NCBI GenBank assembly: GCA_903934035.1
Contig: CAIZMK010000122.1
Location: 1-44,455, forward strand
DNA length: 44,455 bases
DNA from: an uncultured Methylococcaceae bacterium
GTDB taxonomy: Bacteria > Pseudomonadota > Gammaproteobacteria > Methylococcales > Methylomonadaceae
Direction: 5' to 3'
Shown one piece after another: positions 5,914 through 26,441 of this stretch. Numbering within the stretch: the first letter of the stretch is position 1; the number at the start of each line of letters is the position of its first letter. The position numbers and the translations under genes were made by a program. The notes below the pieces were generated by a model. It did not search any database. It was not told where the DNA came from and was given only the letters and a program-made list of their open reading frames with translations.

Positions 5914-5984
5914 ATAGGATGTACCTACGCAAGGAGGCACATCATTGAGGAGTGATGCGCTTCACTTTGTTCGGCGTATCCTAT
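5914..5984. repeat. Family D short inverted repeat at the kdpD-like stop codon
   Basis: Bounded by ATAGGAT (5914-5920) and ATCCTAT (5978-5984), with GGAGGCACATC / GATGCGC segments inside. Related sequence occurs at 40301-40360 and 41942-42001. The kdpD-like stop codon (5981-5983) lies within its right end. Confidence 0.55.
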
Positions 5985-7156
5985 AGCTTTGATTTATCAT
6001 TACTGAGTCTTTCCGGCTTAGGGCTGCCAAGTAGATAAAGATTAATATTATGCGCATCACTAATCAAGCTATCGACCAATGAGCCAAATAATAAACGTTT
6101 CCATCCGCGCCGAGTCGGCTTACCTAGGACAATTTTAGTCACATTTCTCTCATTGCATAGATTGATAATAGCGGCGCTGATATCGAATGCACTTATAACT
6201 AAGGTTTCGGCGCCTAGTTGTTCGGCAAAACGTAAAATACGCAACACACTATCGTGTTTTTCAGCCGACATGCGTTTTAATTCCGGTGTTTCTACATAGA
6301 CTACCAGCCATTCGGCGCGCAAACTGCTGGCAAAACGCTTGCCGGCTCTAACTAAGCGTTCCGCTAAGCCATTAGGGCTTATGCAAACCATAATACGTTC
6401 GCTAACTTGCCACACATCAGCTATGGCATTGTCTTCGCGATAATCTTGCATTTGTGCATCGACTCGACTAGCCGTTTGTCTGAGTGCCAATTCCCTCAGA
6501 GCAATCAGATTACCTTTACGAAAAAAGTGTTTGATAGCGAGTTGCGCTTGTTGCGGCAAATAAACTTTGCCATCTTTAAGTCGATCTAGCAAATCATCAG
6601 GAGGCAGATCGACTAGCTCGATTTCATCAGCATTTTCAAATACGGTATCGGGGACGGTTTCCCAGACCCTTATGCCAGAAATTTGACCTATTTCATCATT
6701 AAGGCTTTCTAAATGCTGGACATTAAGGGCAGTATAAACATCAATACCGGCATTAAGTAGTTCTTCTATATCTTGCCAGCGTTTAGGATGCCTGCAGCCT
6801 TCTGCATTGCTATGTGCTAGTTCATCTACCAGAATGATAGAAGGCTTGCGTTTAAGTGCGGCATCTAAGTCAAATTCTTTAAAAGTGTTTCTACGATAAT
6901 TAATGACTTTGGGCGGCAATTGCTCCAAACCTTCTAACAAAGCGGCTGTTTCTTTGCGGCCATGCGTTTCTATCAAGCCTATGATGATGTCACAGTTTTC
7001 GGCACGTCTTTCTTTAGCCGCCAGCAACATGGCATAGGTTTTACCAACACCGGCAGCAGCTCCAAAAAATATTTTCAAGCGGCCACGAAGCGCTAGTGCT
7101 CGTTCTCGATTGACACGAGCCAGTAATTCATCAGGATCAGGGCGTTGTATAGTCAT
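5981..7156 (-). CDS. Stand-alone KdpD N-terminal sensor (KdpD + Usp domains, no kinase)
   Basis: Corresponds only to the cytoplasmic input half of the potassium sensor kinase KdpD (E. coli KdpD about 894 residues; here 391). Residues about 25-235 form the KdpD domain with a Walker A motif GAAAGVGKT (32-40) and the family hallmarks RHPKRWQDIEELL and NVQHLESLND. Residues about 250-375 form a universal-stress (Usp) domain with VISAFD...IVLGKPTRRGWK. The four-helix membrane domain and the histidine kinase are absent, and no kdpE is in the window. Short KdpD proteins of this kind are known, for example in cyanobacteria. The stop codon falls in a dispersed repeat, so recent truncation is also possible. 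kdpFABC is on the same strand 9 kb upstream. Confidence 0.9.
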   Translation of the reverse strand: MTIQRPDPDELLARVNRERALALRGRLKIFFGAAAGVGKTYAMLLAAKERRAENCDIIIGLIETHGRKETAALLEGLEQLPPKVINYRRNTFKEFDLDAALKRKPSIILVDELAHSNAEGCRHPKRWQDIEELLNAGIDVYTALNVQHLESLNDEIGQISGIRVWETVPDTVFENADEIELVDLPPDDLLDRLKDGKVYLPQQAQLAIKHFFRKGNLIALRELALRQTASRVDAQMQDYREDNAIADVWQVSERIMVCISPNGLAERLVRAGKRFASSLRAEWLVVYVETPELKRMSAEKHDSVLRILRFAEQLGAETLVISAFDISAAIINLCNERNVTKIVLGKPTRRGWKRLLFGSLVDSLISDAHNINLYLLGSPKPERLSNDKSKL

Positions 7157-7383
7157 GTTGGTTTGGTAGGTTTATAAGGGTTAATGTCCTTAGTTAAGGA
7201 TAGAAATAAGCTTTAAATCTGTATGGGGCGACAAATTCGCCTTGTCGCATAGAACATCGGATTACTGGGCAAATTGCTCGTCTCTACCCACCCTACGTTT
7301 CTGTCCTACTGGTTGCAACTTAGGTGTTATTTTGCCTTGTTTTTGGAGTCAAAACTCATGAGTTTTGTGTCTTTAAAACAGCC

Positions 7384-7435
7384 GTAGGCCGGAATAAGAC
7401 TTTTTGAGCGAAAGCGAGTAAAGCATTTCCGGCAA
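7384..7435. repeat. Family A palindromic repeat, partial copy
   Basis: One arm of the family A element, from GTAGGCCGGAATAAG through GAGCGAAAGCGAG to TTTCCGGCA. A diverged second arm may follow to about 7490. The 590-bp gap 7157-7745 otherwise holds a degenerate GGGGCGACAAATTCG-type repeat and no gene. Confidence 0.65.
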
Positions 7436-7697
7436 TTCGAACGATGTATATGCCGGTAACGCCACCAGCCAATGCGCTTTATTTTGTTTAGGGCATCCTA
7501 TAATTTTATTCGCTATATCGGAAAACAAATTTAAATTGTAATCAAATGCACTTAAAAAAGCGTACTACATGTCTTAGTTTTATGTAAAACTCGCTCGGTA
7601 TTGACTGATACTTTTTACAGTATTAACTTTATGTAATGTTAGGTGTTTTTTTTTTTCGGTCAATGACTTATGTCCGACTTTTATCTGTAATTAACGG

Positions 7698-7749
7698 AAC
7701 TAGTTTTTAATGAACCATGATAACGTAACTAGTTTTTAATGAACCATGA
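7698..7749. repeat. 23-bp direct repeat overlapping a start codon
   Basis: AACTAGTTTTTAATGAACC followed by ATGA occurs exactly at 7698-7720 and 7727-7749, period 29 bp. The second copy supplies the ATG of the HTH-GGDEF gene. It could be an operator or a small duplication. Confidence 0.75.
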
Positions 7750-8984
7750 ATAATTTGAAGAAAGTCAAAAAAAGTTTTTCTGAAGAGCTCAATAAAAGTT
7801 TGTTCCATAAATTTAACAGAAAAGTCACTACTACATTCTTCGTCAATGAATTTAATTTAAGAGCGCATGGAACAAAGGTTATTGCTTACGAAACAGGCAG
7901 AAAGTGGCTAAAAGGTATCGCTTTACCTCAAACCTCTAAAATACAGGTGCTGGTTGAATGGTTGGGACTCGATCCCAAAATATTATTTGATATTAATAGT
8001 CGGAACGATCACAAACAAGAATCAGACCCTCAATTTAATAACACCTTAGATATTTCAGATGAGCATCGCTCTTTAGAAGCTATATATTTAATAGCCAATC
8101 AACTAACTCATAATCAACGACACCTATTGTTATTTACTGCTTTAACAGCCCAGTATTTTTCGGAAAAAAAGAATTTTATTTTTGATTATGATTATTTCAT
8201 CAAGAAAAATTCTCTACTTTTACAAGGTACAGAAAGCCACGATCTAGAACAGGTATTAGCTTTAAAAAGCTCAAAAACGATGGCGCAAGCTTTCCAAGTT
8301 GAGTTACAGAATTATCGCAAAGGGGGCTCAGCGTTTTGGAATGAGCTCGACATTACATCCATCACTAATAACGAGGGGGAATTTATGGAGTCTCTAGGTA
8401 TACAAGGTGATATCAACGAAACTACTGATATCGATACCATACCTGAAAAAGGTCAGCACATAGAACATTTTGCCTATTACGATACTTTAACCGGATTACC
8501 TAATTGTTTACTGCTAAATGACAGAATAAATCAGGCTATAGTCTCTGCGAGCAGATATAAGGCTAAAATGGCGTTGTTATTTGTAGATTATGACGATTTT
8601 AAAACGATTAACAGCCAATACGGGCACGTTGCCGGTGATGCGTTTTTAGTTGACATTAGTTTAGCTATGTCTAGTATGCTTCGACGATCAGATACTCTAG
8701 CAAGACTGGGCGGTGATGAGTTTATTATATTAATGCCGGAAATTTCTCGTGTTTCTCCTATAAATATTCTGTTAGACAAAATCTTGGAAGCTTGTAATAG
8801 CCCTGTGCCCCATAACACAGATAATTTACAGATCTCTGCCAGTATAGGTTGCGCCGTGTTTAATGGCGAGATAGATAAAGACATGGATGCTCAAGATTTA
8901 TTACACCGTGCTCATCAAGCTATGCATTTGGCAAAAAAATCGGGTAAAAACACGTATCACATTTTTGATCAGCTAACAGACTGA
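7746..8984 (+). CDS. HTH-GGDEF protein, probable diguanylate cyclase
   Basis: Probably makes cyclic di-GMP from two GTP. The C-terminal GGDEF domain (about residues 240-408) has an intact active site GGDEF at 322-326 and an inhibitory I-site RRSD at 313-316, exactly five residues upstream. The N-terminal about 85 residues (FVNEFNLRA...ITYETGRKWLKG-like...WLGLD) read as a phage-repressor-type helix-turn-helix that binds DNA, an unusual partner for GGDEF. No membrane segment is seen, so the protein should be cytoplasmic. In the same frame just past its TGA the sequence continues into an EAL domain start, so this is the 5' part of a former HTH-GGDEF-EAL gene. Activity of the remaining cyclase is plausible but not shown. 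Confidence 0.85.
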   Translation: MNNLKKVKKSFSEELNKSLFHKFNRKVTTTFFVNEFNLRAHGTKVIAYETGRKWLKGIALPQTSKIQVLVEWLGLDPKILFDINSRNDHKQESDPQFNNTLDISDEHRSLEAIYLIANQLTHNQRHLLLFTALTAQYFSEKKNFIFDYDYFIKKNSLLLQGTESHDLEQVLALKSSKTMAQAFQVELQNYRKGGSAFWNELDITSITNNEGEFMESLGIQGDINETTDIDTIPEKGQHIEHFAYYDTLTGLPNCLLLNDRINQAIVSASRYKAKMALLFVDYDDFKTINSQYGHVAGDAFLVDISLAMSSMLRRSDTLARLGGDEFIILMPEISRVSPINILLDKILEACNSPVPHNTDNLQISASIGCAVFNGEIDKDMDAQDLLHRAHQAMHLAKKSGKNTYHIFDQLTD

Positions 8985-9200
8985 CAGGTCAATACCCAGT
9001 ATCAACATTTGTTTGAAATACAAACAGGGTTAGCTATAGGGGAGTTTGAGTTGTATTACCAGCCCAAAGTCAATATGCGCAAGATAGTTTTATTGGTGTT
9101 GAAGCGTTAATAAGCAGGAGTCATCATACAGGGCTTATTGGCAGCTAATGAGTTTTTGCCTTTGATTGAGGATCATCATTTGCTTAATGATTTAGGTATG
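8985..9200 (+). pseudogene. Remnant of an EAL (c-di-GMP phosphodiesterase) domain
   Basis: Immediately after the GGDEF stop codon, in the same frame, comes HLFEIQTGLAIGEFELYYQPKV, the standard EAL opening. Later frames give FIGVEALI, containing the EAL glutamate motif itself, and then AANEFLPLIEDHHLLNDLG. At least two frameshifts and several stops separate these pieces, and the homology ends at a dispersed repeat (9208). The phosphodiesterase half of the gene is therefore dead. Confidence 0.85.
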
Positions 9201-9207
9201 TCAGACC

Positions 9208-9239
9208 AAAGGTGGGCAAACGATAAAGCTGTTTGCACA
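9208..9239. repeat. 32-bp direct repeat, left copy flanking hicAB
   Basis: GGTGGGCAAACGATAAAGCT and flanks are repeated exactly at 9887-9918. The two copies bracket the hicAB pair and a family A element. Confidence 0.85.
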
Positions 9240-9259
9240 CCCTACACGCTGTTTTATTT

Positions 9260-9375
9260 GAGGTCGGAATAAGACAGCGCTAACAAAGCGTTTGATGGCG
9301 TTTCCGGCACAGGAGCCGAGTGAATGCCGGAAACGCTTTTCTCGCTTACGCTCGTAAAGCCTTATTCCGGCCTAC
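9260..9375. repeat. Family A palindromic repeat, full copy
   Basis: About 116 bp with complementary outer arms (GTCGGAATAAG / CTTATTCCGGCC) and inner arms GGCGTTTCCGGCA / TGCCGGAAACGC. Other full copies: 9981-10097, 15739-15855, 22159-22275, 26271-26386. Partial copies: 7384-7435, 19103-19157, 37926-37980. Confidence 0.9.
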
Positions 9376-9394
9376 TAGGCTGTTTTAGATAGGG

Positions 9395-9607
9395 TTATGC
9401 TTGAACTTCAACGAAGGTGCTTGCAGAATGTGGCATTGGAATATATTGCCCTTCTTCTTTAAGCCCTTCAATATGAAACTCGATGGCTTCTTGTATGAGT
9501 TGCAGGGCTTCTTGATGTGATTCGCCTGCAGCTATACAGCCGGGGAGATCAGGTACATAGGCGCCAAAGCTTGTTGGACCTTCTTCAATAACAACTAAAT
9601 AACGCAT
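9395..9607 (-). CDS. hicB: HicB-family antitoxin
   Basis: A 70-residue protein with the HicB partial RNase-H-like fold: MRYLVVIEEG, then FGAYVPDLPGCIAAG and ALQLIQEAIEFHIEGL. It neutralises HicA by direct binding. It is at the short end for HicB and has no evident C-terminal DNA-binding domain, so autoregulation may need another factor. It lies 11 bp downstream of hicA on the same strand, the usual hicAB order. Confidence 0.93.
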   Translation of the reverse strand: MRYLVVIEEGPTSFGAYVPDLPGCIAAGESHQEALQLIQEAIEFHIEGLKEEGQYIPMPHSASTFVEVQA

Positions 9608-9618
9608 ATAAACCTCTA

Positions 9619-9804
9619 CTACTTAAGTCCCGCTTGTTTCAGAACGTTTAAAAGTGTTCCTTGCGGAACATCTACGCTGGGTTTTCCAGCAACAGTAACC
9701 GTACCAGATTTAATGGGATGGTGATATTGGCGATGACTTCCTTTTTGCCGGATTTGCTGCCAACCATCCAATTCAATTGTTGCGATAAGGTCTTTAATTT
9801 TCAT
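9619..9804 (-). CDS. hicA: HicA-family mRNA interferase toxin
   Basis: A 61-residue toxin of the double-stranded RNA-binding-like HicA family that cleaves mRNA. The catalytic histidine is His24 in KGSHRQYHHP, followed by the conserved strand GTVTVAGK and the C-terminal helix GTLLNVLKQAGL. All family elements are present, so it should be active. It is the first gene of the pair, and the module is bracketed by 32-bp direct repeats, which suggests it moved or was duplicated as a unit. Confidence 0.94.
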   Translation of the reverse strand: MKIKDLIATIELDGWQQIRQKGSHRQYHHPIKSGTVTVAGKPSVDVPQGTLLNVLKQAGLK

Positions 9805-9886
9805 GAGATGAGTTTAACATGATTTAACTTATATGATTAAAGCCAGGTAGGGTAGACAATGTTTTTCTGCCCACCGTTTATCGACA

Positions 9887-9918
9887 AAAGGTGGGCAAAC
9901 GATAAAGCTGTTTGCACA
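9887..9918. repeat. 32-bp direct repeat, right copy flanking hicAB
   Basis: Exact copy of 9208-9239. Each copy is followed by a family A element (9260-9375 and 9981-10097), so the unit repeat-plus-element is duplicated on both sides of hicAB. Confidence 0.85.
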
Positions 9919-9980
9919 TTTTATTTATTACCTAGTTGTTCATCAATCCTAATATGCTTTTTTAGGTGGGAGAATAAGCT

Positions 9981-10097
9981 GTAGGCCGGAATAAGACCAT
10001 GCTAGCGTAGCGCGTGGTGGCGTTTCCGGCACAGGAGTGGAGTAAATGCCGGAAACGCTTTGCTCGCTTATGCTCGTAAAGCCTTATTCCGGCCTAC
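9981..10097. repeat. Family A palindromic repeat, full copy
   Basis: Starts GTAGGCCGGAATAAG and ends CTTATTCCGGCCTAC, with inner arms GTTTCCGGCA / TGCCGGAAAC. It lies just past the 3' end of the Rhs unit on the minus strand and could act as an mRNA 3'-end structure. Confidence 0.92.
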
Positions 10098-10119
10098 TAG
10101 GCAGTTACTGTTATAGCCT

Positions 10120-10557
10120 TTAATATTTTGGTGGTTTGTCTATACATTCATAACTTGGTATAAATGCCAAAATTTTCTTAACATTTTCAGGTGATACAAA
10201 TGTAAAAGGTCTATCTAACAAATCCTTAACATGATTCTCTATCACAGTATATGTATACAAGCCGCCTTGTGTTTCTGATATGTCTATCGTAGCACTTTGG
10301 TGCGTTATGTTTAGAGGAGCGGTATTTATCATTTTGCCATTCTTTAATTCTAAAATCCTTCCTTGCTTACCATCAAGGCTGAATATTAAAACTGCTTTAC
10401 CGGTTTGCGTCTTGCATGCTGTGTAAAGCACGGCAGTTTGTGAGCTTTCGAGTTCAGTGAGATAACGATCAGGAAATTTATCAAAGTCTACAGATTGCCC
10501 AAATGCATTAGTAGATAGTAAAAGCTGGATTACAATCAGAATAGTTCTAGCACTCAA
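10120..10557 (-). CDS. Small secreted protein, candidate immunity protein for the Rhs effector
   Basis: A 145-residue protein of no recognised family. It opens with a signal peptide (ILIVIQLLLSTNAFG, probable cleavage after FG or GQ), so the mature protein should be periplasmic. Two cysteines (in YTACKTQ and SYECIDK) could form a disulfide. Its TTG start overlaps the TGA of the Rhs gene, giving tight translational coupling. A gene of unknown family immediately after an Rhs C-terminal toxin domain is the standard position for the cognate immunity gene; periplasmic targeting fits a toxin that attacks peptidoglycan. The immunity role is inferred from position only. Confidence 0.6.
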   Translation of the reverse strand: MSARTILIVIQLLLSTNAFGQSVDFDKFPDRYLTELESSQTAVLYTACKTQTGKAVLIFSLDGKQGRILELKNGKMINTAPLNITHQSATIDISETQGGLYTYTVIENHVKDLLDRPFTFVSPENVKKILAFIPSYECIDKPPKY

Positions 10558-13500
10558 TGGCCTACCCCATATGTATTTGCATAGATACCTGTTGCATTCA
10601 GTCCGCCACCAGTGAAGCTGTTGTTTAATGGGCCAAATTGAGTTTGTATCGGCAATCTAAAAAATGGTGCTGTTGAATTATTATTGCGAAAATTAAAATT
10701 TAACGCGCCATTCGTTGGGTCTATTTCACCATTTGTGCGGGCATTTCGCGCAACAGCCACTGCGTTTTTACATGCTTGGTAAGTTTGCTGTTCAGAAGCA
10801 GGAACTATTGAAGTTGTTGGTGCTGTAGCAGGTCTATTATCACCGAGAGCATTATCTCCGTTGATTACCACCTGCGCTATATTTGATCTTGCTTGATCTA
10901 AATTAGCACCTGAAAAAGACCTTGTTTCATTGAAGATGATATTTGCAATTTGTGCATCTGTTAGTTCAAGCCCCAACAAATCAACAAAACTCAAAGGATT
11001 ATTCCCCACATACCCATAAGTATTAACCCCTCCAGCCAAGCCAATTAAATCACTCTCGATATACCGTCCTATCGCAGGATTGTAATCCCTGAATCCGTTG
11101 TAATGCAGTCCGGTACTATTATCATAATACTGACCAGGAAAACGTAAATTATAGCTGAACGTCGAGCTGGTGGCGGCTTGGGTGCCGAAGGCTTCGCTAT
11201 CCCAGCGCCAAACTACGGCGCCGGTGTTGTCGCTAATTGCTCGTGGAGCATTGAGATGGTCGGCGTAGACATAATAGGCGTTATTGCCAGATAACACGGC
11301 AACTGGCGTATTGGCTAGCCATACAGTTTCTTGGAGGGCTGTGCCGCTTTGATTGTATTCACCTAGTAACTGTCCAGCTTCGTCATAGACAAAATAAGTG
11401 CCGGTCTGGATATATTTGCTAGGATGAAGGTGCATGTCGGCAAGTTTAGTTTGGGCGCAAACTACGTCGGCTGTGGTGATTTTATTGTCATGGTTACAAT
11501 CAGCGGAAAGATTAATGGGTGCAGTGCCTAGGGTCATTAGGACTATCAGACGTAAGTCTGTCGCTGTTAAGGTGCCGTCTTGGTTAGCGTCCCCTGATAA
11601 ATCAGGTGCTAAGCCGGTGACTTTGGCATCACGTTGTCCTAGTCCATTGATTCGGTAGTATTCGCTGCCGAAACTGATGCTCGATGCTTGTTCTAATCGA
11701 CCTCTGCCGTCGTAGTTAAAAGTGTTATAACCGTCGTTTATCACATGCCCAGCTGGATCATAGCTATAGCTATTCAAGGTCTGGTTATTAGTGTCGGTAA
11801 TCCCTAATAAGCGGTTGCTATTTAGATCTAGTTTGTAGTTTTTGCTGGTTGAACCTGAAGTTAGCAGTTGTGTGCGATTGCCATTGGCATCGTAACTATA
11901 TGTCATTTGTGTGAGAGGATCGTTATAAGCGATCAAACGCCCCAGCTTATCGTAACTAAAACTTTGATCGTGGTTGAGATCGGAGTCGGTGTAACTGCTG
12001 ATGCGGCTAGCGGCATCATAAGCTAATTGCCGTGAACGGTTGCCTAAATCATAGCTAAGCAGACGCCCATCTAAATCAAAGTTGCGGCTAGTGGTTGCGC
12101 CATTGCCAAATACCCAGCTTTTTGCAGAACCAAAGGGCTGATATTTTATGGCGCTGAGTAAAGGCACGTTATTGCTATCTAGTGCGGTTACTTGGCCGTT
12201 ACTGTTGTATTTCAGTTGCACCATTTTGCCGGAAGGGTAGGTAAGTGAAGTGAGTTGACCTTTGGATGAATAACCATATTGAGTGACTAGTCTTAACGAG
12301 CCGCTGATCAGGGTTTTGCTAGCGACCCTTCCATGTAGATCATAAGCCCATAGTGTTGTGTCGGTTCCGTCACTCATCTGGGTTAGATGACCTATGCCAT
12401 TGACGCCTTGATCATAACTAAAGTTGATAGGAGCTTTGTTGGGGTAACTAGATTGAGATACGCGATTTAAAGCATCGTAACTGTAAGTAACGGTTTGCCC
12501 TCTAGCATCAATAGTACTGATGGGGTTGCCAACGGCATCACGGTTAATTTGACTTAGACCTGTGTCGGTGCTGGAAGTAATCAATTTTTGACCGAAACCA
12601 TCATAGCCATATCGAGTAATATGGTTTAAGGGATCAATCAATGCTAGCGGGTTGTTGTTGCTATCATAGCTACTGGTAGTGATGTCACCGAGAGGATCGA
12701 CACTGCTAATTAAGCGATTCAGTCGATCATAGGCCAAGTTAGTTTTGTTGCTAAGTGGATCAGCAACACTGGTGGTATTGCCATTGGCGTCATAGCCAAA
12801 TTTAGAGGTTTGGTTTTGAGCACCTATGATATTTGCCAATCGGCTAAGACCATCAAAAACCTGCGAGCGCGTACTAGCTAAAGTATTAGTTGGATCAAAG
12901 GTTTTGGTGTTAAGGCGGTTACCCATTAAATCTAATGTGTAATCGATATGATTGCCTAGTGTATCGATAATACTGATTAAACGATGAGCATTATCGTAAC
13001 TATAGGAAAGACTGCTTGCATCTGGCAAAGTTAGCTTGATGAGCTGGCCTGCGGCATCAAATTTGTATCGTGTCACTTCTGTGCCTACTGTTGAAGTAAT
13101 CAGCCTGCCACGAGCATCGTATTGAAGGCTAGTTACTAAGCCGTTAGGATCTTTAAAGCTGAGTGGTTGGCCGTCGGCGTTATAACTTGAAATGTTAGTG
13201 ACATGACCCAAGGCATCAGTAACAGCATTGAGGTTACCTAGACTATCGTAAGCAAAGTGTGTGACATCACTAACGTCAGTGCGCGGGCCGTCTATACTTA
13301 AGGGTTGACTCGAACTATTGTAAGTAAAAGTCCATATTTTTGTTTGAGTACCTGCGCTGATTGTTTTTTGCAGCAAATTACCTTTGCTATCAAAGTTAAA
13401 ATTGGAGGTTTTGGTGGGCTCTTTAATGCTGATTGGTAAGCGGAAATTAGAATGCCAAGTAGTTATTGTGGATCTTGCTTGTGGAGTTCCTGCGGCTTCG

Positions 13501-14810
13501 GTACTTAAAAGTTGAAGATTTCGTGTCGTATCGTAAGTGTAAGTACTGGTGTTTCCGTTGAAATCAATCTGGCTACTTATATTGCCATTGGCATCATAAG
13601 TCTTAGTGGTTTTGGTCGTCGCATAAGTAGCAGGGCAACTCGGGCAACTTTGATTCATCTGAGTTTCTAAAGGCACTTCATTGATGGAGGTGAAAGTTGA
13701 GGTACGAGTGACACCCAGCGCATCAGTGACCGGCACATAAGCATTGGTCAGATAGCTAAAGTCTAATGTGTATTTGTAAACGCCACCAGCAAATTCAGTG
13801 GAAATATCGCGGCCAGCACTATCGTAAGCATCGCTGGAATAACGAGTGCCTTTTTCATCAATTACGCCTGTTAGCGCATTGGGGTAAGTAATATTTTCGT
13901 AAATGAATTTTCGTTGTGTTGCATCAGGATAAGTGACAGTCGAAAGATTATTTTTTACATCGTAACTATAAGCGTAAATGCCAGCGTTCGGTACAGTGAC
14001 TGAAGAAACGTTGGTGCCCGTATAAGCAAAATTTAAGCTGCGTCCGAAGGCATTAGTAACTGTGGCCAAGTAGCCTTGGGCATTATAGCTAAGGTTCTGA
14101 CTTAAGCCAGCACGGTCGGTAACGCTGGTTAGTTGACCAATGGTATTATAGATTTCAACTTCATCCAGCCCTGTCGTATATTGCCAACCATTAGATACTT
14201 TAATCAGCCTGGAATTAATATCACTGTCAGATTGCCAAAGGCTGCCATTTTGGTAGAAATTTAGGATCTTACCGTCATCGCGCGTCACATCGACTGCATA
14301 GTTGTATTGATAATTACCATTAATAAGAAAAATTCCATAATAAACAGCACTAACATTACGACTATAGCTACCATGCCAGCCCACACCAAAACTCGTTATA
14401 CTGGTATCGGAGCTATTATAAGAACGCTTGAGTATTAGGGGCGATGAATCGCTGCTGAAATAATCAACTTCATTCATATATTTATTGCCAGTTGCAATAA
14501 CTACAGGATCGCCAGCTAATTCAAGTGTGCTATTACTATCAGGGTTAGTACTATTGCCGTAACTTTTTGATGGATTCTGGGTAATACATTCATCGCCGTC
14601 AATATCACCATCTGGCAATTCACAATAAACGGGCTGAACTGCATAAGCCGGCATAGAGACAGGAATCATGATTGCTAGTGTAAATGACAACGCGATACGA
14701 CTAGTCATTTTTGCTAAGAAATGCTTCATACTTGGTTTTTGCTTTATTACAGTCTTTTTTGAATGTACGAGTTCATTAACGGAAGATCCGTTATTTGCGA
14801 TGGCAGTCAT
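10554..14810 (-). CDS. Secreted Rhs/YD-repeat protein with internal dockerin and SleB-like C-terminal domain
   Basis: 1418 residues. A strong AGGAAGG ribosome site precedes ATG 14810. A signal-type segment (about residues 38-57, LSFTLAIMIPVSMPAYA) indicates export; it sits after an about 35-residue leader, so ATG 14727 is an alternative start. Then follow a DUF6531-like segment (GDPVVIATGNKYMNEVDYF), many YD repeats (YDxxGxL type), and at residues 1074-1117 two EF-hand-like dockerin loops: D1074-N1076-D1078...D1085 and D1104-N1106-D1108...D1115. The Rhs core ends with RDYNPAIGRYIESD and NNPLSFVDLLGL (to 1281). The 137-residue variable tail starts with a NETRSFSG segment (candidate catalytic Glu1295) and QARSNIAQVVING, resembling SleB/CwlJ cell-wall hydrolases. 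Probable role: contact-dependent or surface-displayed toxin. Confidence 0.88.
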   Translation of the reverse strand: MTAIANNGSSVNELVHSKKTVIKQKPSMKHFLAKMTSRIALSFTLAIMIPVSMPAYAVQPVYCELPDGDIDGDECITQNPSKSYGNSTNPDSNSTLELAGDPVVIATGNKYMNEVDYFSSDSSPLILKRSYNSSDTSITSFGVGWHGSYSRNVSAVYYGIFLINGNYQYNYAVDVTRDDGKILNFYQNGSLWQSDSDINSRLIKVSNGWQYTTGLDEVEIYNTIGQLTSVTDRAGLSQNLSYNAQGYLATVTNAFGRSLNFAYTGTNVSSVTVPNAGIYAYSYDVKNNLSTVTYPDATQRKFIYENITYPNALTGVIDEKGTRYSSDAYDSAGRDISTEFAGGVYKYTLDFSYLTNAYVPVTDALGVTRTSTFTSINEVPLETQMNQSCPSCPATYATTKTTKTYDANGNISSQIDFNGNTSTYTYDTTRNLQLLSTEAAGTPQARSTITTWHSNFRLPISIKEPTKTSNFNFDSKGNLLQKTISAGTQTKIWTFTYNSSSQPLSIDGPRTDVSDVTHFAYDSLGNLNAVTDALGHVTNISSYNADGQPLSFKDPNGLVTSLQYDARGRLITSTVGTEVTRYKFDAAGQLIKLTLPDASSLSYSYDNAHRLISIIDTLGNHIDYTLDLMGNRLNTKTFDPTNTLASTRSQVFDGLSRLANIIGAQNQTSKFGYDANGNTTSVADPLSNKTNLAYDRLNRLISSVDPLGDITTSSYDSNNNPLALIDPLNHITRYGYDGFGQKLITSSTDTGLSQINRDAVGNPISTIDARGQTVTYSYDALNRVSQSSYPNKAPINFSYDQGVNGIGHLTQMSDGTDTTLWAYDLHGRVASKTLISGSLRLVTQYGYSSKGQLTSLTYPSGKMVQLKYNSNGQVTALDSNNVPLLSAIKYQPFGSAKSWVFGNGATTSRNFDLDGRLLSYDLGNRSRQLAYDAASRISSYTDSDLNHDQSFSYDKLGRLIAYNDPLTQMTYSYDANGNRTQLLTSGSTSKNYKLDLNSNRLLGITDTNNQTLNSYSYDPAGHVINDGYNTFNYDGRGRLEQASSISFGSEYYRINGLGQRDAKVTGLAPDLSGDANQDGTLTATDLRLIVLMTLGTAPINLSADCNHDNKITTADVVCAQTKLADMHLHPSKYIQTGTYFVYDEAGQLLGEYNQSGTALQETVWLANTPVAVLSGNNAYYVYADHLNAPRAISDNTGAVVWRWDSEAFGTQAATSSTFSYNLRFPGQYYDNSTGLHYNGFRDYNPAIGRYIESDLIGLAGGVNTYGYVGNNPLSFVDLLGLELTDAQIANIIFNETRSFSGANLDQARSNIAQVVINGDNALGDNRPATAPTTSIVPASEQQTYQACKNAVAVARNARTNGEIDPTNGALNFNFRNNNSTAPFFRLPIQTQFGPLNNSFTGGGLNATGIYANTYGVGH

Positions 14811-14896
14811 ATTCCTTCCTATTATTTAGATATTGGAACCAGACGACAACGCTACAAAAGCAGGGCGATTGGTTTTGAATGGGTTTGTTGGGGTAT

Positions 14897-15535
14897 TTAA
14901 ATAAAATGCTTGCGATGTTGTGTTAGTAGAAATGACAAGCCACTTAGCATAAGCAACAAAAAAGTAGTGGGTTCAGGGATAGATACCAGGTTTGCGGTGT
15001 TTAGGTATGAATAATCGGTGATGGTTATGGATCTACTTTGAGTGGTAGCCTCAATATTGAGGGAATTAGCATCAGAAAGACTATTAATCGATAGTGTAAT
15101 TGGACTGATGCCTGCAACTAGCGTATTAAAAGACAATACCGCTAGAGTAAAACTGCTAGCTTGAGCAGCGCTTAAACTAGCCGGATCATACAATGAGGTA
15201 TCGATCAAACTAACAAGTCCATTACTTGGTGTCGATAAGGATAAACTATTGCCAAGGTTTAAAGGATCAAGTTGATCGATGCCCAGCACTAGTGGATCGC
15301 CAAAAGCCACATTGACTAAGGATAGTAAAGTGGAATCGAAGCTAATATTTAAATCAAAGCTACCAAGAGCGATGCCAGTAGCCAATCCAGTAATGTTGAC
15401 ATCAAAAAGAACAGTCGTTCCAGTGCTAACAGTTTGAGTGTCAGAGCTGATGCTAAGAATAGGGTTTGCATGAGATGAAGTGGTGAAAAGAAAAAATAAT
15501 ACCGTACTACTAACGAAAAAAAGGGCTTTATTCAT
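14897..15535 (-). CDS. Secreted cohesin-like PEP-CTERM protein
   Basis: 212 residues: signal peptide (LFFVSSTVLFFLFTTSSHA), a single beta-sandwich domain about residues 27-175 with cohesin-like features (VSTGTTVLFDVNITGL, GSFDLNISFDSTLLSLV, then LSFNTLVAG near the end), and a C-terminal sorting signal beginning PEPTTFLLLMLSG and ending in a basic tail QHRKHF. PEP-CTERM signals are processed by exosortase, which anchors or releases proteins at the Gram-negative surface; no exosortase gene is in the window. It lies 86 bp upstream of the Rhs gene on the same strand. Cohesins bind dockerins, and the Rhs protein carries a dockerin, so this protein is a likely surface receptor for it. The cohesin call rests on pattern, not a search. 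Confidence 0.75.
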   Translation of the reverse strand: MNKALFFVSSTVLFFLFTTSSHANPILSISSDTQTVSTGTTVLFDVNITGLATGIALGSFDLNISFDSTLLSLVNVAFGDPLVLGIDQLDPLNLGNSLSLSTPSNGLVSLIDTSLYDPASLSAAQASSFTLAVLSFNTLVAGISPITLSINSLSDANSLNIEATTQSRSITITDYSYLNTANLVSIPEPTTFLLLMLSGLSFLLTQHRKHFI

Positions 15536-15738
15536 GAGTGTCCCAAAGTATTTACAATCAGAACTTAGGCTTATGCAGTAATGATGCCAGTCAGTTTGGT
15601 TTATAGGTTTGGCGCACTATCTACTATTAAATACTTACTCAACAAGTACTCCAAAATATAAAAGTGTATAAAAGCCTGACATTTATATCGCTCCAGCGGC
15701 ATTCCCATGCGCAGCGTCACTGCTACAGTTAAGCTTTT

Positions 15739-15855
15739 GTAGGCAGGAATAAGACCATGCTAGCGTAGCGCGTGGTGGCAATACCGGCACAGGATCGATG
15801 TGATTGCCGGAAACGCTTTGCTCGCTTACGCTCGTAAAGCCTTATTCCGGCCTAC
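15739..15855. repeat. Family A palindromic repeat, full copy
   Basis: Arms GTAGGCAGGAATAAG and CTTATTCCGGCCTAC around a TACCGGCA / TGCCGGAAAC core. The surrounding gap 15536-16262 also holds TTACGCC / GGTGTAATACGC-type repeats (about 15900-16005) and a GGAACGCCAAGCCCC repeat (about 16208-16263) that abuts the kdpC stop. I see no gene in it; the promoter of the cohesin gene should lie at 15536-15700. Confidence 0.9.
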
Positions 15856-16262
15856 AATAAGTTCAAATATTTCTTAACTGTGGGCAGTGATGCGCAGCGT
15901 GGGAACGATCGAACCCGCAACTTGTGAGGCGTTGAGCGTAGCGTATTACGCCAATGATGCACGGTGAATAAGGTGTAATACGCTAAAGCTATTGCACCCT
16001 ACATACTAAGTGGATATTGAAAGTGTCAATTTTCTTTACAGTGAGTTTAAGCACTTTAAATCGATGACCTCATGATCTTGATTGACTGGTTAGGGTCATA
16101 ATCATGCCTAAATCAACATAGGCCTTAGATTGGGTGTCAGAATATTTTACACTCGGCATTTAAGCACCCTTACAAACTTTGAGTTGGCTTTGAGGGGTAG
16201 ATCTTGTGGGAACGCCAAGCCCCAGCTTGGCATTGGTGCCGCAGAGCTGGCGCTTAGCGTTC

Positions 16263-16844
16263 CTATTTTGCGATACTCGCATCTAAAGCTAAATTCAAAG
16301 CCAGTACATTAACGCGTGGTTCTCCTAGAAAGCTCCATTGACGAGACACTGTGTTTGCATCAATCAGTGCATGAATCAATTCCGGCTTTATTTTTCTAGC
16401 TTTAGCTACACGATTGACTTGATAGTTCGCAGCTGCAGGACTGATGTGTGGATCTAAGCCACTGGCCGAGGCGGTAATAAGATCGACTGGAATTGGAGCT
16501 TTATTATCAGGATCCAGATTTTTTAAGGCTTGGAGTCTGGCTTTAATGCCAGTTATCAAAGCCGGATTAGTTGGGCCTAGGTTGGAACCGCTTGATGCGC
16601 TAGCATTATAGGGGTAGGGTGCGGTGGCAGAAGGTCGTCCCCAAAAATGACTAGGATCATTAAAAGGCTGACCTATTAGAGCAGAGCCTGTCACTCTGCC
16701 ATGATTATCTGTAATCAGGCTGCCATTTGCTTGAAGAGGAAATAGTAATTGAGCTAGCCCGGTGACTACAGCCGGATAGATAACTCCAGTTAATACTGTT
16801 AATAATACAAACAAAATAATAGCTGGTTTGAAATGCTTAATCAT
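16263..16844 (-). CDS. kdpC: Potassium-transporting ATPase subunit C
   Basis: Accessory subunit of the high-affinity K+ pump KdpFABC, anchored by one N-terminal membrane helix ([20 protein letters not shown]), with a periplasmic domain containing [14 protein letters not shown] and [11 protein letters not shown], all family hallmarks. I start it at ATG 16844 because AAAGGAG sits six bases upstream; an in-frame start at 16910 would add 22 residues with no support. This gives 193 residues, the normal size. It is the last gene of the operon, 78 bp after kdpB, with a hairpin in the gap. A dispersed repeat begins right at its stop codon. Confidence 0.95.
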
Positions 16845-16888
16845 GATCAACTCCTTTAAGGGAACAACAATTGAAGTTATTGTGGAAG

Positions 16889-16921
16889 CGGCTTTAGCCT
16901 CGATCTTCACGGCTAAAGCCG
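16889..16921. repeat. Intra-operon hairpin between kdpB and kdpC
   Basis: Perfect 11-bp stem CGGCTTTAGCC / GGCTAAAGCCG with an 11-base loop. A similar GGCTTTAG / CTAAAGC hairpin is at 22309-22357. There is no T-run, so it is more likely an mRNA-stability or repeat element than a terminator. Confidence 0.75.
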
Positions 16922-16922
16922 A

Positions 16923-18995
16923 TTAAACTAGACCTAAGGTTGTTAGTAATAGGTCTATCGCCTTAATGCCTATAAATGGAACGATTAATCCACCTAAGCC
17001 GTAAATCAGTAAGTTATTTTGTAGCAGTTTAGCTGCGCCGACTGGCTTATATTTGATACCTTTTAAAGCCAGGGGAATGAGTGCCACGATGATTAAGGCA
17101 TTGAATATCACTGCCGATAAAATGGCGCTAGTGGGTGTTGCTAGTTTCATTACATTCAAAACATCAAGGATTGGATAGGTGCTTGCGAACGCTGCCGGAA
17201 TAATCGCAAAATATTTGGCGACATCATTAGCAATACTGAAGGTGGTTAAGGCGCCCCGTGTCATGAGCATTTGTTTACCGGTTTCAACGATTTCGATGAG
17301 TTTGGTAGGGTTAGAATCAAGATCAACCATGTTACCAGCTTCTTTAGCGGCTTGTGTTCCGCTGTTCATGGCGACTGCGACATCGGCTTGAGCTAAAGCT
17401 GGAGCATCGTTAGTGCCGTCTCCGGTCATCGCGACCAATCGACCTTCGGACTGATATTGTCGTATGAGTTTTAATTTCATTTCTGGTGTGGCTTCGGCCA
17501 GAAAATCATCGACACCGGCTTCTGCAGCAATGGCGGCAGCAGTTAGGCGATTGTCGCCAGTAATCATAATGGTCTTGATACCCATTTGTCGTAACTCTGC
17601 AAAGCGTTCTTTAATACCGCCTTTGACGATATCTTTTAGTTCGATCACGCCGAGTACTCTGGCGTCTTCAGCAACAATTAGCGGAGTACTGCCGCGACAA
17701 GCCACATCATCAACCAGTTTCCGAAATTCCGGCGGAAATTGGCCGCCTAGTGTTTCAATATGCGTGCGGATGGCATCGGCTGCGCCCTTACGAATTTGCC
17801 GACCTTGAATGTTAACGCCGCTCATTCGGGTTTGTGCGGAAAAATGCACAAAGGTTGCTCCTAAGGCATTGATATCTCGTTCTCGTATACCATATTTTTG
17901 CTTAGCTAAAACCACCACACTCCGTCCCTCTGGGGTTTCGTCAGTGAGTGATGCTAATTGTGCGGCATCGGCTAGTTCTTGATTTGATACGCCGTTAACG
18001 GCTATAAAAGCAGAGGCTTGTCGATTACCTAAAGTGATGGTTCCGGTTTTATCTAGCAATAATACGTCGATGTCTCCAGCGGCTTCTACTGCTCTGCCGG
18101 AAGTAGCAATCACGTTTTTCTGCATCATGCGGCCTATGCCGGCCAGACCAATGGCAGATAATAAGCCACCGATAGTCGTCGGTATTAAACAAACTAATAA
18201 CGCTACTAATACCGTAATGGTGATCGGCTGACCTGAACCTGAAGTTTCTACCGCGTATAAAGAAAAGGGTAATAAGGTCACGGTCGCCATTAAAAATACC
18301 TGAGTTAAGGCGACCAATAAGATGGTTAAGGCAATTTCATTAGGGGTTTTTTGGCGTTTAGCGCTTTCTACCATGGCAATCATTCTATCCAGAAAAGCTT
18401 CACCTGGATTGGCGGTAATTCTAACTACCAGCCAATCTGATAACACGCGTGTGCCACCCGTTACCGAACTGAAATCGCCACCTGATTGTCGGATGACCGG
18501 TGCGCTTTCCCCAGTGATGGCGCTTTCATCTACTGAGGCGACACCCTCTATAACTTCGCCGTCACCAGGGACAAAATCTCCGGCTTCTATTAATACCACA
18601 TCGCTAAATCGAAGAGTGGAACCTGATACTTTAGAGTAATTGGCGCCATAATGAGGTTCATCGAGTTTTCTTGCGGCTATATCACGCTTGGCAGTGCGTA
18701 AAAAAGCGGCTTGAGCCTTGCTGCGGCCTTCAGCCATTGCTTCAGCGAAGTTTGCAAATAAAACCGTGATCCACAACCATAAGCTGATGGCTAAAATGAA
18801 CGGGGCTGGATCTTTGCCTTCTCCGTAAAGTGCTAACACCCAAAGCAAGGTAGTCAGCATACTGCCGATATAAACGACAAACATCACCGGATTTTTCCAT
18901 TGTTGCTGCGGTGTTAGTTTGCGAAATGAATCCAACAAAGCAGTCGTTAGAATTTGGCTATCGAATAGCGACAATGTGGCAGATTTGTTGCTCAT
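16923..18995 (-). CDS. kdpB: Potassium-transporting P-type ATPase subunit B
   Basis: Catalytic subunit of KdpFABC; hydrolyses ATP through an aspartyl-phosphate to drive K+ uptake at low external potassium. At 690 residues it has the usual length. The phosphorylation site is Asp315 in DKTGTITLG, the actuator motif TGES is at 161-164 (its serine is the inhibitory phosphorylation site in E. coli), and the hinge region has [21 protein letters not shown]. Membrane helices match the family. It follows kdpA on the same strand, but the 500-bp gap filled with repeats (18996-19498) is abnormal for this operon and could reduce kdpBC expression. GTTATTTCC-type sequence precedes the start, consistent with an AAGGAAAT ribosome site. 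Confidence 0.98.
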
Positions 18996-26270: not shown

Positions 26271-26386
26271 TAGGCCGGAATAAGACCCTCCAAGCGCAGC
26301 GCGTGGTGGCGTTTCTGGCACAGGAACGCTACCTATGCCGGAAACGCTTTACTCGCTTACGCTCGAAAAGCCTTATTCCGGCCTAC
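26271..26386. repeat. Family A palindromic repeat, full copy
   Basis: TAGGCCGGAATAAGACC at the left, CCTTATTCCGGCCTAC at the right, inner arms GGCGTTTCTGGCA / TGCCGGAAACGC. It lies between the ATP-grasp-like gene and the EAL fragment. Confidence 0.92.
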
Positions 26387-26441
26387 AAATTCTACAAATA
26401 ATAAACTTAATGATAGTGACGCGGAGTGTTACAACTCTCTT

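Follow-up and report, generated by a model that had tools for sequence, protein, structure and literature searches.

Here we describe a three-gene unit on contig CAIZMK010000122.1 (assembly GCA_903934035.1) of an uncultured Methylococcaceae bacterium, which probably encodes a polymorphic Rhs toxin that is exported by Sec, is held by a dedicated, exosortase-sorted cohesin receptor and forms one cargo of a wider display arrangement. The 44,455-nucleotide stretch that was analysed (the window) is one whole contig of the 3.19-Mb genome. The unit lies on the minus strand and consists, in order, of genes for a 212-residue protein (14897–15535), a 1418-residue Rhs/YD-repeat protein (10554–14810) and a 145-residue protein (10120–10557); the TTG start of the last gene overlaps the TGA stop of the Rhs gene. 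A previous inspection of the letters alone (the sequence-only reading) had proposed this layout, with a cohesin-like PEP-CTERM protein, a dockerin-bearing Rhs protein and a small overlapping gene. Its coordinates, strand, gene order and start/stop overlap are borne out by the reading frames, and all of the components are present. Its overall interpretation, a toxin docked non-covalently to an exosortase-anchored surface receptor, is supported by the cohesin fold, by the co-occurrence of the pair and by the toxin/immunity evidence described below.

The 212-residue protein is the putative anchor and receptor. It starts with a predicted signal peptide (about residues 1–23; signal peptides of the unit's proteins were assigned by eye), followed by a cohesin domain (about residues 23–175; 15011–15466) and a PEP-CTERM sorting signal (residues 186–209; 14909–14980). 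The Pfam Cohesin model (PF00963) scores 21.6 bits (E 2.6e-4), just under its cut-off of 24.1, and the fold was therefore put to the test. The AlphaFold model, computed with 36 relatives, has a predicted local distance difference test (pLDDT) score of 86.5, and its top Foldseek match is the cohesin 6kgc_A (E 6.4e-10). VIA-align superposes the two over the model range 23–175 with a Z score of 17.2 and a root mean squared deviation of 2.0 over 138 residues, and a 36-member profile of the protein finds cohesins among PDB sequences at E 1.1e-19. The sequence-only reading had staked its proposal on a cohesin fold being predicted for this protein and on the pair recurring in related genomes; the first of these holds, PDB cohesins being the best match of the fold. 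Chance domain calls, suspected from the weak Pfam scores, were ruled out by this fold and by gene adjacency. The C terminus has the PEP motif, hydrophobic helix (residues 191–208 in the AlphaFold model) and basic end of PEP-CTERM proteins. It scores 18.0 bits with TIGR02595, over the curated cut-off of 16, which upholds the assignment made from the letters; the Pfam PEP-CTERM model gives 18.4, under its cut-off of 20.7. An exosortase is encoded in the same genome (Exosortase_EpsH, E 5.8e-52).

The 1418-residue protein carries the YD repeats that had been proposed (RHS_repeat, 277.6 bits) and an Rhs-associated core (Rhs_assc_core, TIGR03696, 82.4 bits, residues 1206–1281, 10968–11195). Its N terminus is signal-peptide-like by eye. 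Rhs effectors delivered by the type VI secretion system (T6SS) typically have an N-terminal PAAR domain, and the PAAR family is absent from this protein in a Pfam scan at E up to 1. Soon after the signal peptide comes a conserved acidic stretch, CELPDGDIDGDECITQNPSK (window 14565–14624), which is also found in genomes G018, G025 and G120.

A type I dockerin with two D-x-N-x-D loops occupies residues 1073–1123 (11442–11594), within the Rhs core. It scores 16.6 bits in the full-length scan, under the Pfam cut-off of 22.9, and 25.0 bits when scanned as a lone domain, over that cut-off, which it also exceeds in the genome-wide search. PDB dockerins are matched at E 3.3e-4. Both loops have D or N at positions 1, 3, 5 and 12, and the calcium-loop positions are invariant in six of six aligned Rhs copies, so that the two-loop dockerin seen in the letters stands. 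G008, of the same genus, encodes a 57% identical Rhs protein whose core matches but for the missing dockerin stretch, and the dockerin is therefore cleanly inserted, adding about 68 residues; an Rhs protein of G003 likewise lacks it. No cohesin was found in the stretches fetched around these two dockerin-free genes (12 and 10 kb). Dockerins were also looked for among plasmid Rhs proteins whose alignment spans almost the entire query (the best 10 of 1107 records); the two that were read (Vibrio rumoiensis and Calothrix) have none.

A profile of the Rhs-dockerin protein, run on 311 genomes, picks out 12 places in 11 of them. Eight of the 12, in four genera, have a cohesin gene immediately upstream in the same orientation (G000, G018, G025, G144, G129, G120, G671 and G081); the G144 locus is a Methylomonas koyamae plasmid (NZ_AP019778). 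In a separate set of genome contigs, four of 23 dockerin loci are of the Rhs type. The expected co-occurrence of the pair in related genomes is thus seen at these eight places, and at 34 of 49 cohesin places (below), but not at the other four of the 12. In two genomes the Rhs shell is split into two open reading frames (ORFs) (L199:3300–8025 in G081 and L196:1042–5809 in G662), the second of which has its own signal-peptide-like start, as if the shell had two subunits.

At the level of sequence, cohesin and dockerin genes are paired beyond chance across Methylococcales. Pfam Cohesin gives 52 places in 34 of 251 genomes, of which 49 were fetched; the three that were not fetched are left out of the adjacency count. 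A same-strand ORF recognized by our own dockerin hidden Markov model (HMM), which was seeded partly from members of such pairs, lies within 500 bp at 34 of the 49 fetched places, in 29 of the 34 genomes; Pfam by itself detects Dockerin_1 (E 0.01) in 21 of the 37 candidate partners. Among the 862 ORFs of at least 150 residues in the fetched stretches, 44 carry a dockerin, and 34 of those 44 are the cohesin neighbours. Pfam Cohesin misses members (the G018 gene is absent, and the Rhs-adjacent cohesins of G120 and G081 were found only by our own profile), and the cohesin counts are therefore lower bounds. Cohesin genomes are also rich in the other parts: a Pfam dockerin (E 0.1) is present in 33 of 34, versus 85 of 217 others, and an exosortase in 33 of 34, versus 131 of 217. 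The two exceptions are G228, in which an adjacent dockerin was found by our HMM, and G003, in which the cohesin lies within a 964-residue protein.

In the usual arrangement a cargo gene with a C-terminal dockerin is followed by the cohesin gene; at the Rhs pairs this order is reversed, with the cohesin first. The dockerin is C-terminal in 30 of the 37 partner proteins examined, and 26 of the 37 end in a CT-x-C motif. Cargo types include BNR-repeat proteins, He_PIG proteins, a MauG-like peroxidase and a VWA protein (Pfam detects BNR in nine, BNR_2 in eight and He_PIG in seven of the 37). Cohesin and dockerin distances correlate, with a Mantel r of 0.68 over 38 pairs and 0.51 over 28 non-redundant pairs, and in each case none of 5000 permutations was as high. 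The cohesin tree groups by cargo label with four changes, versus 19 when labels are shuffled, the Rhs cohesins needing two; the labels (BNR 12, PIG 8, RHS 5, other 10) were assigned by us from the sequences. The pair list omits the near copies L093 and L101, L106 (which duplicates L016) and all pairs separated by over 500 bp, and the tree and Mantel test further omit L094 and L024, in which the cohesin lies within a larger protein. A phylum-wide draw gave a Pfam cohesin at E 0.001 in four of 398 genomes, including the window's own. Outside the order, both of the cohesin genes examined (G557 and G631; a third, G336, was left out) are paired with a dockerin ORF: in G557 a reprolysin-type peptidase with a C-terminal dockerin adjoins a cohesin–PEP-CTERM protein, and in G631 an endonuclease/phosphatase-family protein with a dockerin adjoins a cohesin protein. 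The best reading of these data is that these bacteria use cohesin/dockerin display more broadly, with one receptor per cargo, and that the Rhs pair is a single case of it, a wider context that the sequence-only reading had not noticed. Two loci contain several cohesins with a dockerin between them (G144:C1:2435133–2436813 and G136:C22:73852–75635; L109 and L110); in G144, two cohesins and a dockerin lie within one open frame of 10762 residues, a scaffoldin-like surface protein in a methanotroph.

The locus could instead encode an ordinary Rhs toxin and its immunity protein, with the cohesin gene as a hitchhiking neighbour and the dockerin serving only as a calcium-stabilised spacer. The four of 12 Rhs-dockerin places that lack a nearby cohesin, one of them at a contig end, are in line with this. 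We nevertheless consider it improbable, given the cohesin directly upstream at eight of 12 places in four genera, the general adjacency at 34 of 49 and the two dockerin-free Rhs genes of the same genus with no cohesin in the stretches fetched around them.

The C terminus of the Rhs protein appears to behave as a polymorphic toxin domain and is a candidate toxin, a conclusion that comparison of loci supports. The window and G018 loci are orthologous, with 92–96% DNA identity in four long aligned blocks that include the kdp genes. Homology ends at 10962, the start of the variable 136-residue C-terminal domain (10557–10964). In G018 this domain is a VanY/M15 peptidase by Pfam (38.8 bits, cut-off 25), and the small gene behind it, for a 138-residue protein, is not the one of the window, though its product too starts like a signal peptide. 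Among the C termini of 12 Rhs proteins, one of 66 pairs is related (34% over 58 residues). By contrast, seven shells share 40–93% identity over their final 600 residues: a conserved shell with unrelated C termini. Two further C termini match DUF4329 and eCIS_core.

The 145-residue protein, which has a signal-peptide-like start and is the candidate immunity protein, travels with its C-terminal domain. Contig C310 of G025 holds a shell-less copy of the window's domain (85%) followed by a homologue of the 145-residue protein (82%), and the same contig also bears a counterpart of the small protein of G018 (84%). The shell-less domain and small gene in G025 support the toxin/immunity reading that had been made from the letters, as does the exchange of the C-terminal domain in place. 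C-terminal turnover on a conserved shell and shell-less modules are hallmarks of competition toxins. On the same G025 contig, a run of differing small genes follows an Rhs tail (L179:1952–6845), like an immunity array, and most of them have signal-peptide-like starts. Neither the window's C-terminal domain nor the 145-residue protein was matched in plasmids. A defence-system reading was tried and set aside: the one PADLOC match was weak and fell on the small protein.

A different role can be imagined for these domains, namely that they remodel the producer's own wall or matrix and that the small protein is a regulator, not an immunity protein. The peptidase assignment in G018 fits such a role, since the VanY/M15 class also serves self-remodelling. 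The strong C-terminal turnover on a conserved shell and the shell-less modules argue otherwise, and we rate self-remodelling as very improbable, if anything a shade below the hitchhiking cohesin.

The mechanism that we propose for the docked toxin builds on features established by sequence or predicted structure: the cohesin fold, the dockerin, its insertion, the gene adjacency, the C-terminal exchange and the shell-less modules. Judging from its family, the 212-residue protein would be taken across the inner membrane by the signal peptide, after which the exosortase would process its PEP-CTERM tail and send it outward. The Rhs protein would be exported by its own signal peptide and fold as a shell around its C-terminal domain, as in Rhs structures, in which a shell encloses that domain. 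The dockerin would then bind the cohesin with calcium, keeping the toxin on the producer; the domains, the dockerin insertion and the gene adjacency behind this step are evident in the sequences. The dockerin is plausibly internal because the C terminus is an exchangeable toxin; taking the dockerin into the shell would free the C terminus for toxin exchange. On contact, the C-terminal domain would enter a neighbour, and the overlapping small exported protein, by virtue of its linkage, may shield the producer. With slightly less confidence than for the unit itself, we favour a general proposal: PEP-CTERM bacteria own a display system in which dockerin cargo is encoded beside a private exosortase-sorted cohesin, and Rhs toxins joined it by taking a dockerin into the shell, giving a non-covalent contact weapon.

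The pair might be real and still not be a surface launch pad: it might instead keep the Rhs protein within the exopolysaccharide matrix, or escort it across the outer membrane. The available text of Haft et al. 2006 (PMC1569441) ties PEP-CTERM proteins to exopolysaccharide genes and proposes that they join extracellular material; matrix retention is a serious rival, given the proposal there that such proteins pass through the outer membrane and reach the exopolysaccharide layer. Pairs of this type also serve non-toxin cargo (BNR-repeat, MauG-like and metallopeptidase proteins). The variable Rhs C termini and the small genes would still indicate a toxin, and we regard matrix retention or escort as unlikely, though well ahead of the other two alternatives.

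Several findings weigh against the docked toxin or restrict it. No cohesin lies beside the Rhs-dockerin gene at G087 (an N-terminally truncated Rhs of 928 residues), G201 or G662:C4, and at G662:C190 the contig begins inside the Rhs gene. With our dockerin HMM, 15 of the 49 cohesin places have no adjacent dockerin ORF: six of these belong to two clusters (G144 and G136) in which one long frame contains or borders on the cohesins and a dockerin, three have a dockerin gene 2.8 kb off, one is at a contig edge and five are unexplained. Among the 36 cohesin proteins, TIGR02595 matches 13 (E 0.1) and other PEP-CTERM models up to 16, so that the tail is common but undetected in some; outside the order, the G631 cohesin protein has no Pfam PEP-CTERM match. 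Co-inheritance of linked genes alone could yield both the correlated distances and the clustering by cargo. The M. koyamae plasmid has no plus-strand ORF of at least 50 residues starting between 15300 and the integrase, and hence no immunity candidate there; the candidate in G129 is weak; and in G120 the downstream gene encodes an ankyrin protein without an obvious signal peptide, so that the targets need not all be periplasmic. The window's C-terminal domain has no match in Pfam, PHROG or PDB sequences, and an AlphaFold model spanning the dockerin, the core and the toxin domain (pLDDT 42.9) was unusable. Binding of cohesin and dockerin, surface location, delivery and killing are steps that we infer from sequence. 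By look, the C-terminal domain resembled a SleB-type wall hydrolase, an assignment that we do not claim because these searches gave nothing and the model of the region could not be used.

The cohesin–dockerin clip is best known from cellulose-degrading complexes. The unit shares a cohesin fold and a two-loop dockerin with type I anchoring in cellulosomes, but has no multi-cohesin scaffoldin, and an exosortase signal takes the place of Gram-positive anchoring. It contains a single cohesin and, in the Pfam scan, no carbohydrate-active enzyme family; Pfam finds one cohesin place in the whole genome. Toxins of the Rhs/WapA type have a YD-repeat shell, an Rhs core, an exchangeable C terminus, a downstream small gene and shell-less modules, all of which recur here; the unit differs from them in its internal dockerin, upstream PEP-CTERM cohesin, signal-peptide-like start and lack of PAAR in the Pfam scan. 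Non-cellulosomal cohesin/dockerin proteins were reportedly described by Peer et al. in 2009. Such modules are on record in anaerobic methanotrophic (ANME) archaea (PMC9012536, PMC5244752) and Cloacimonadota (PMC8542988), and the unit resembles non-cellulosomal systems in that its secreted proteins bear cohesin and dockerin modules in a setting unrelated to cellulose degradation. It departs from what the available text of these accounts describes in that single-cohesin proteins with PEP-CTERM-type tails stand beside dockerin cargo, one class of which is a polymorphic toxin. The signal peptide, the C-terminal PEP-CTERM and the exosortase in the genome agree with PEP-CTERM/exosortase sorting as set out in the available text of PMC1569441, whereas here the sorted protein seems to serve a second protein as its receptor and not to be the final cargo itself. 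PEP-CTERM together with cohesin was not found described in the open PMC papers searched; the parts are known, and we could not find a description of their combination or of the wider display arrangement behind it.

If the docked-toxin reading is true, PEP-CTERM/exosortase sorting gains a concrete task, that of making receptors where other proteins dock. It would also provide Gram-negative bacteria with a route to presenting a polymorphic toxin other than the T6SS or two-partner secretion, by which such toxins are presented in these bacteria. A function would be supplied for non-cellulosomal cohesin/dockerin pairs, whose function is called not known in the available text of PMC5244752, and the family would be a source of many natural, possibly orthogonal, cohesin/dockerin pairs.

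The unit, the HicA/HicB pair that follows it and a GGDEF gene sit between kdpC (16263–16910) and a short kdpD (5981–7156). The HicA/HicB toxin–antitoxin pair (9395–9804) lies directly after the unit and is flanked by copies of a 120-bp interspersed repeat with inverted ends; copies also stand on either side of the unit (9980–10097 and 15738–15857), with others at 26271–26388 and elsewhere. The two copies around the unit were not accepted as specific evidence of a mobile cassette bounded by them, since the repeat is matched 45 times in the genome and several times in the window. Within 5981–18995 the kdp genes are interrupted by the unit, with kdpB and kdpC on one side and the short KdpD, a 391-residue protein comprising a sensor plus a Usp domain, on the other; the kdpC side is retained in G018.

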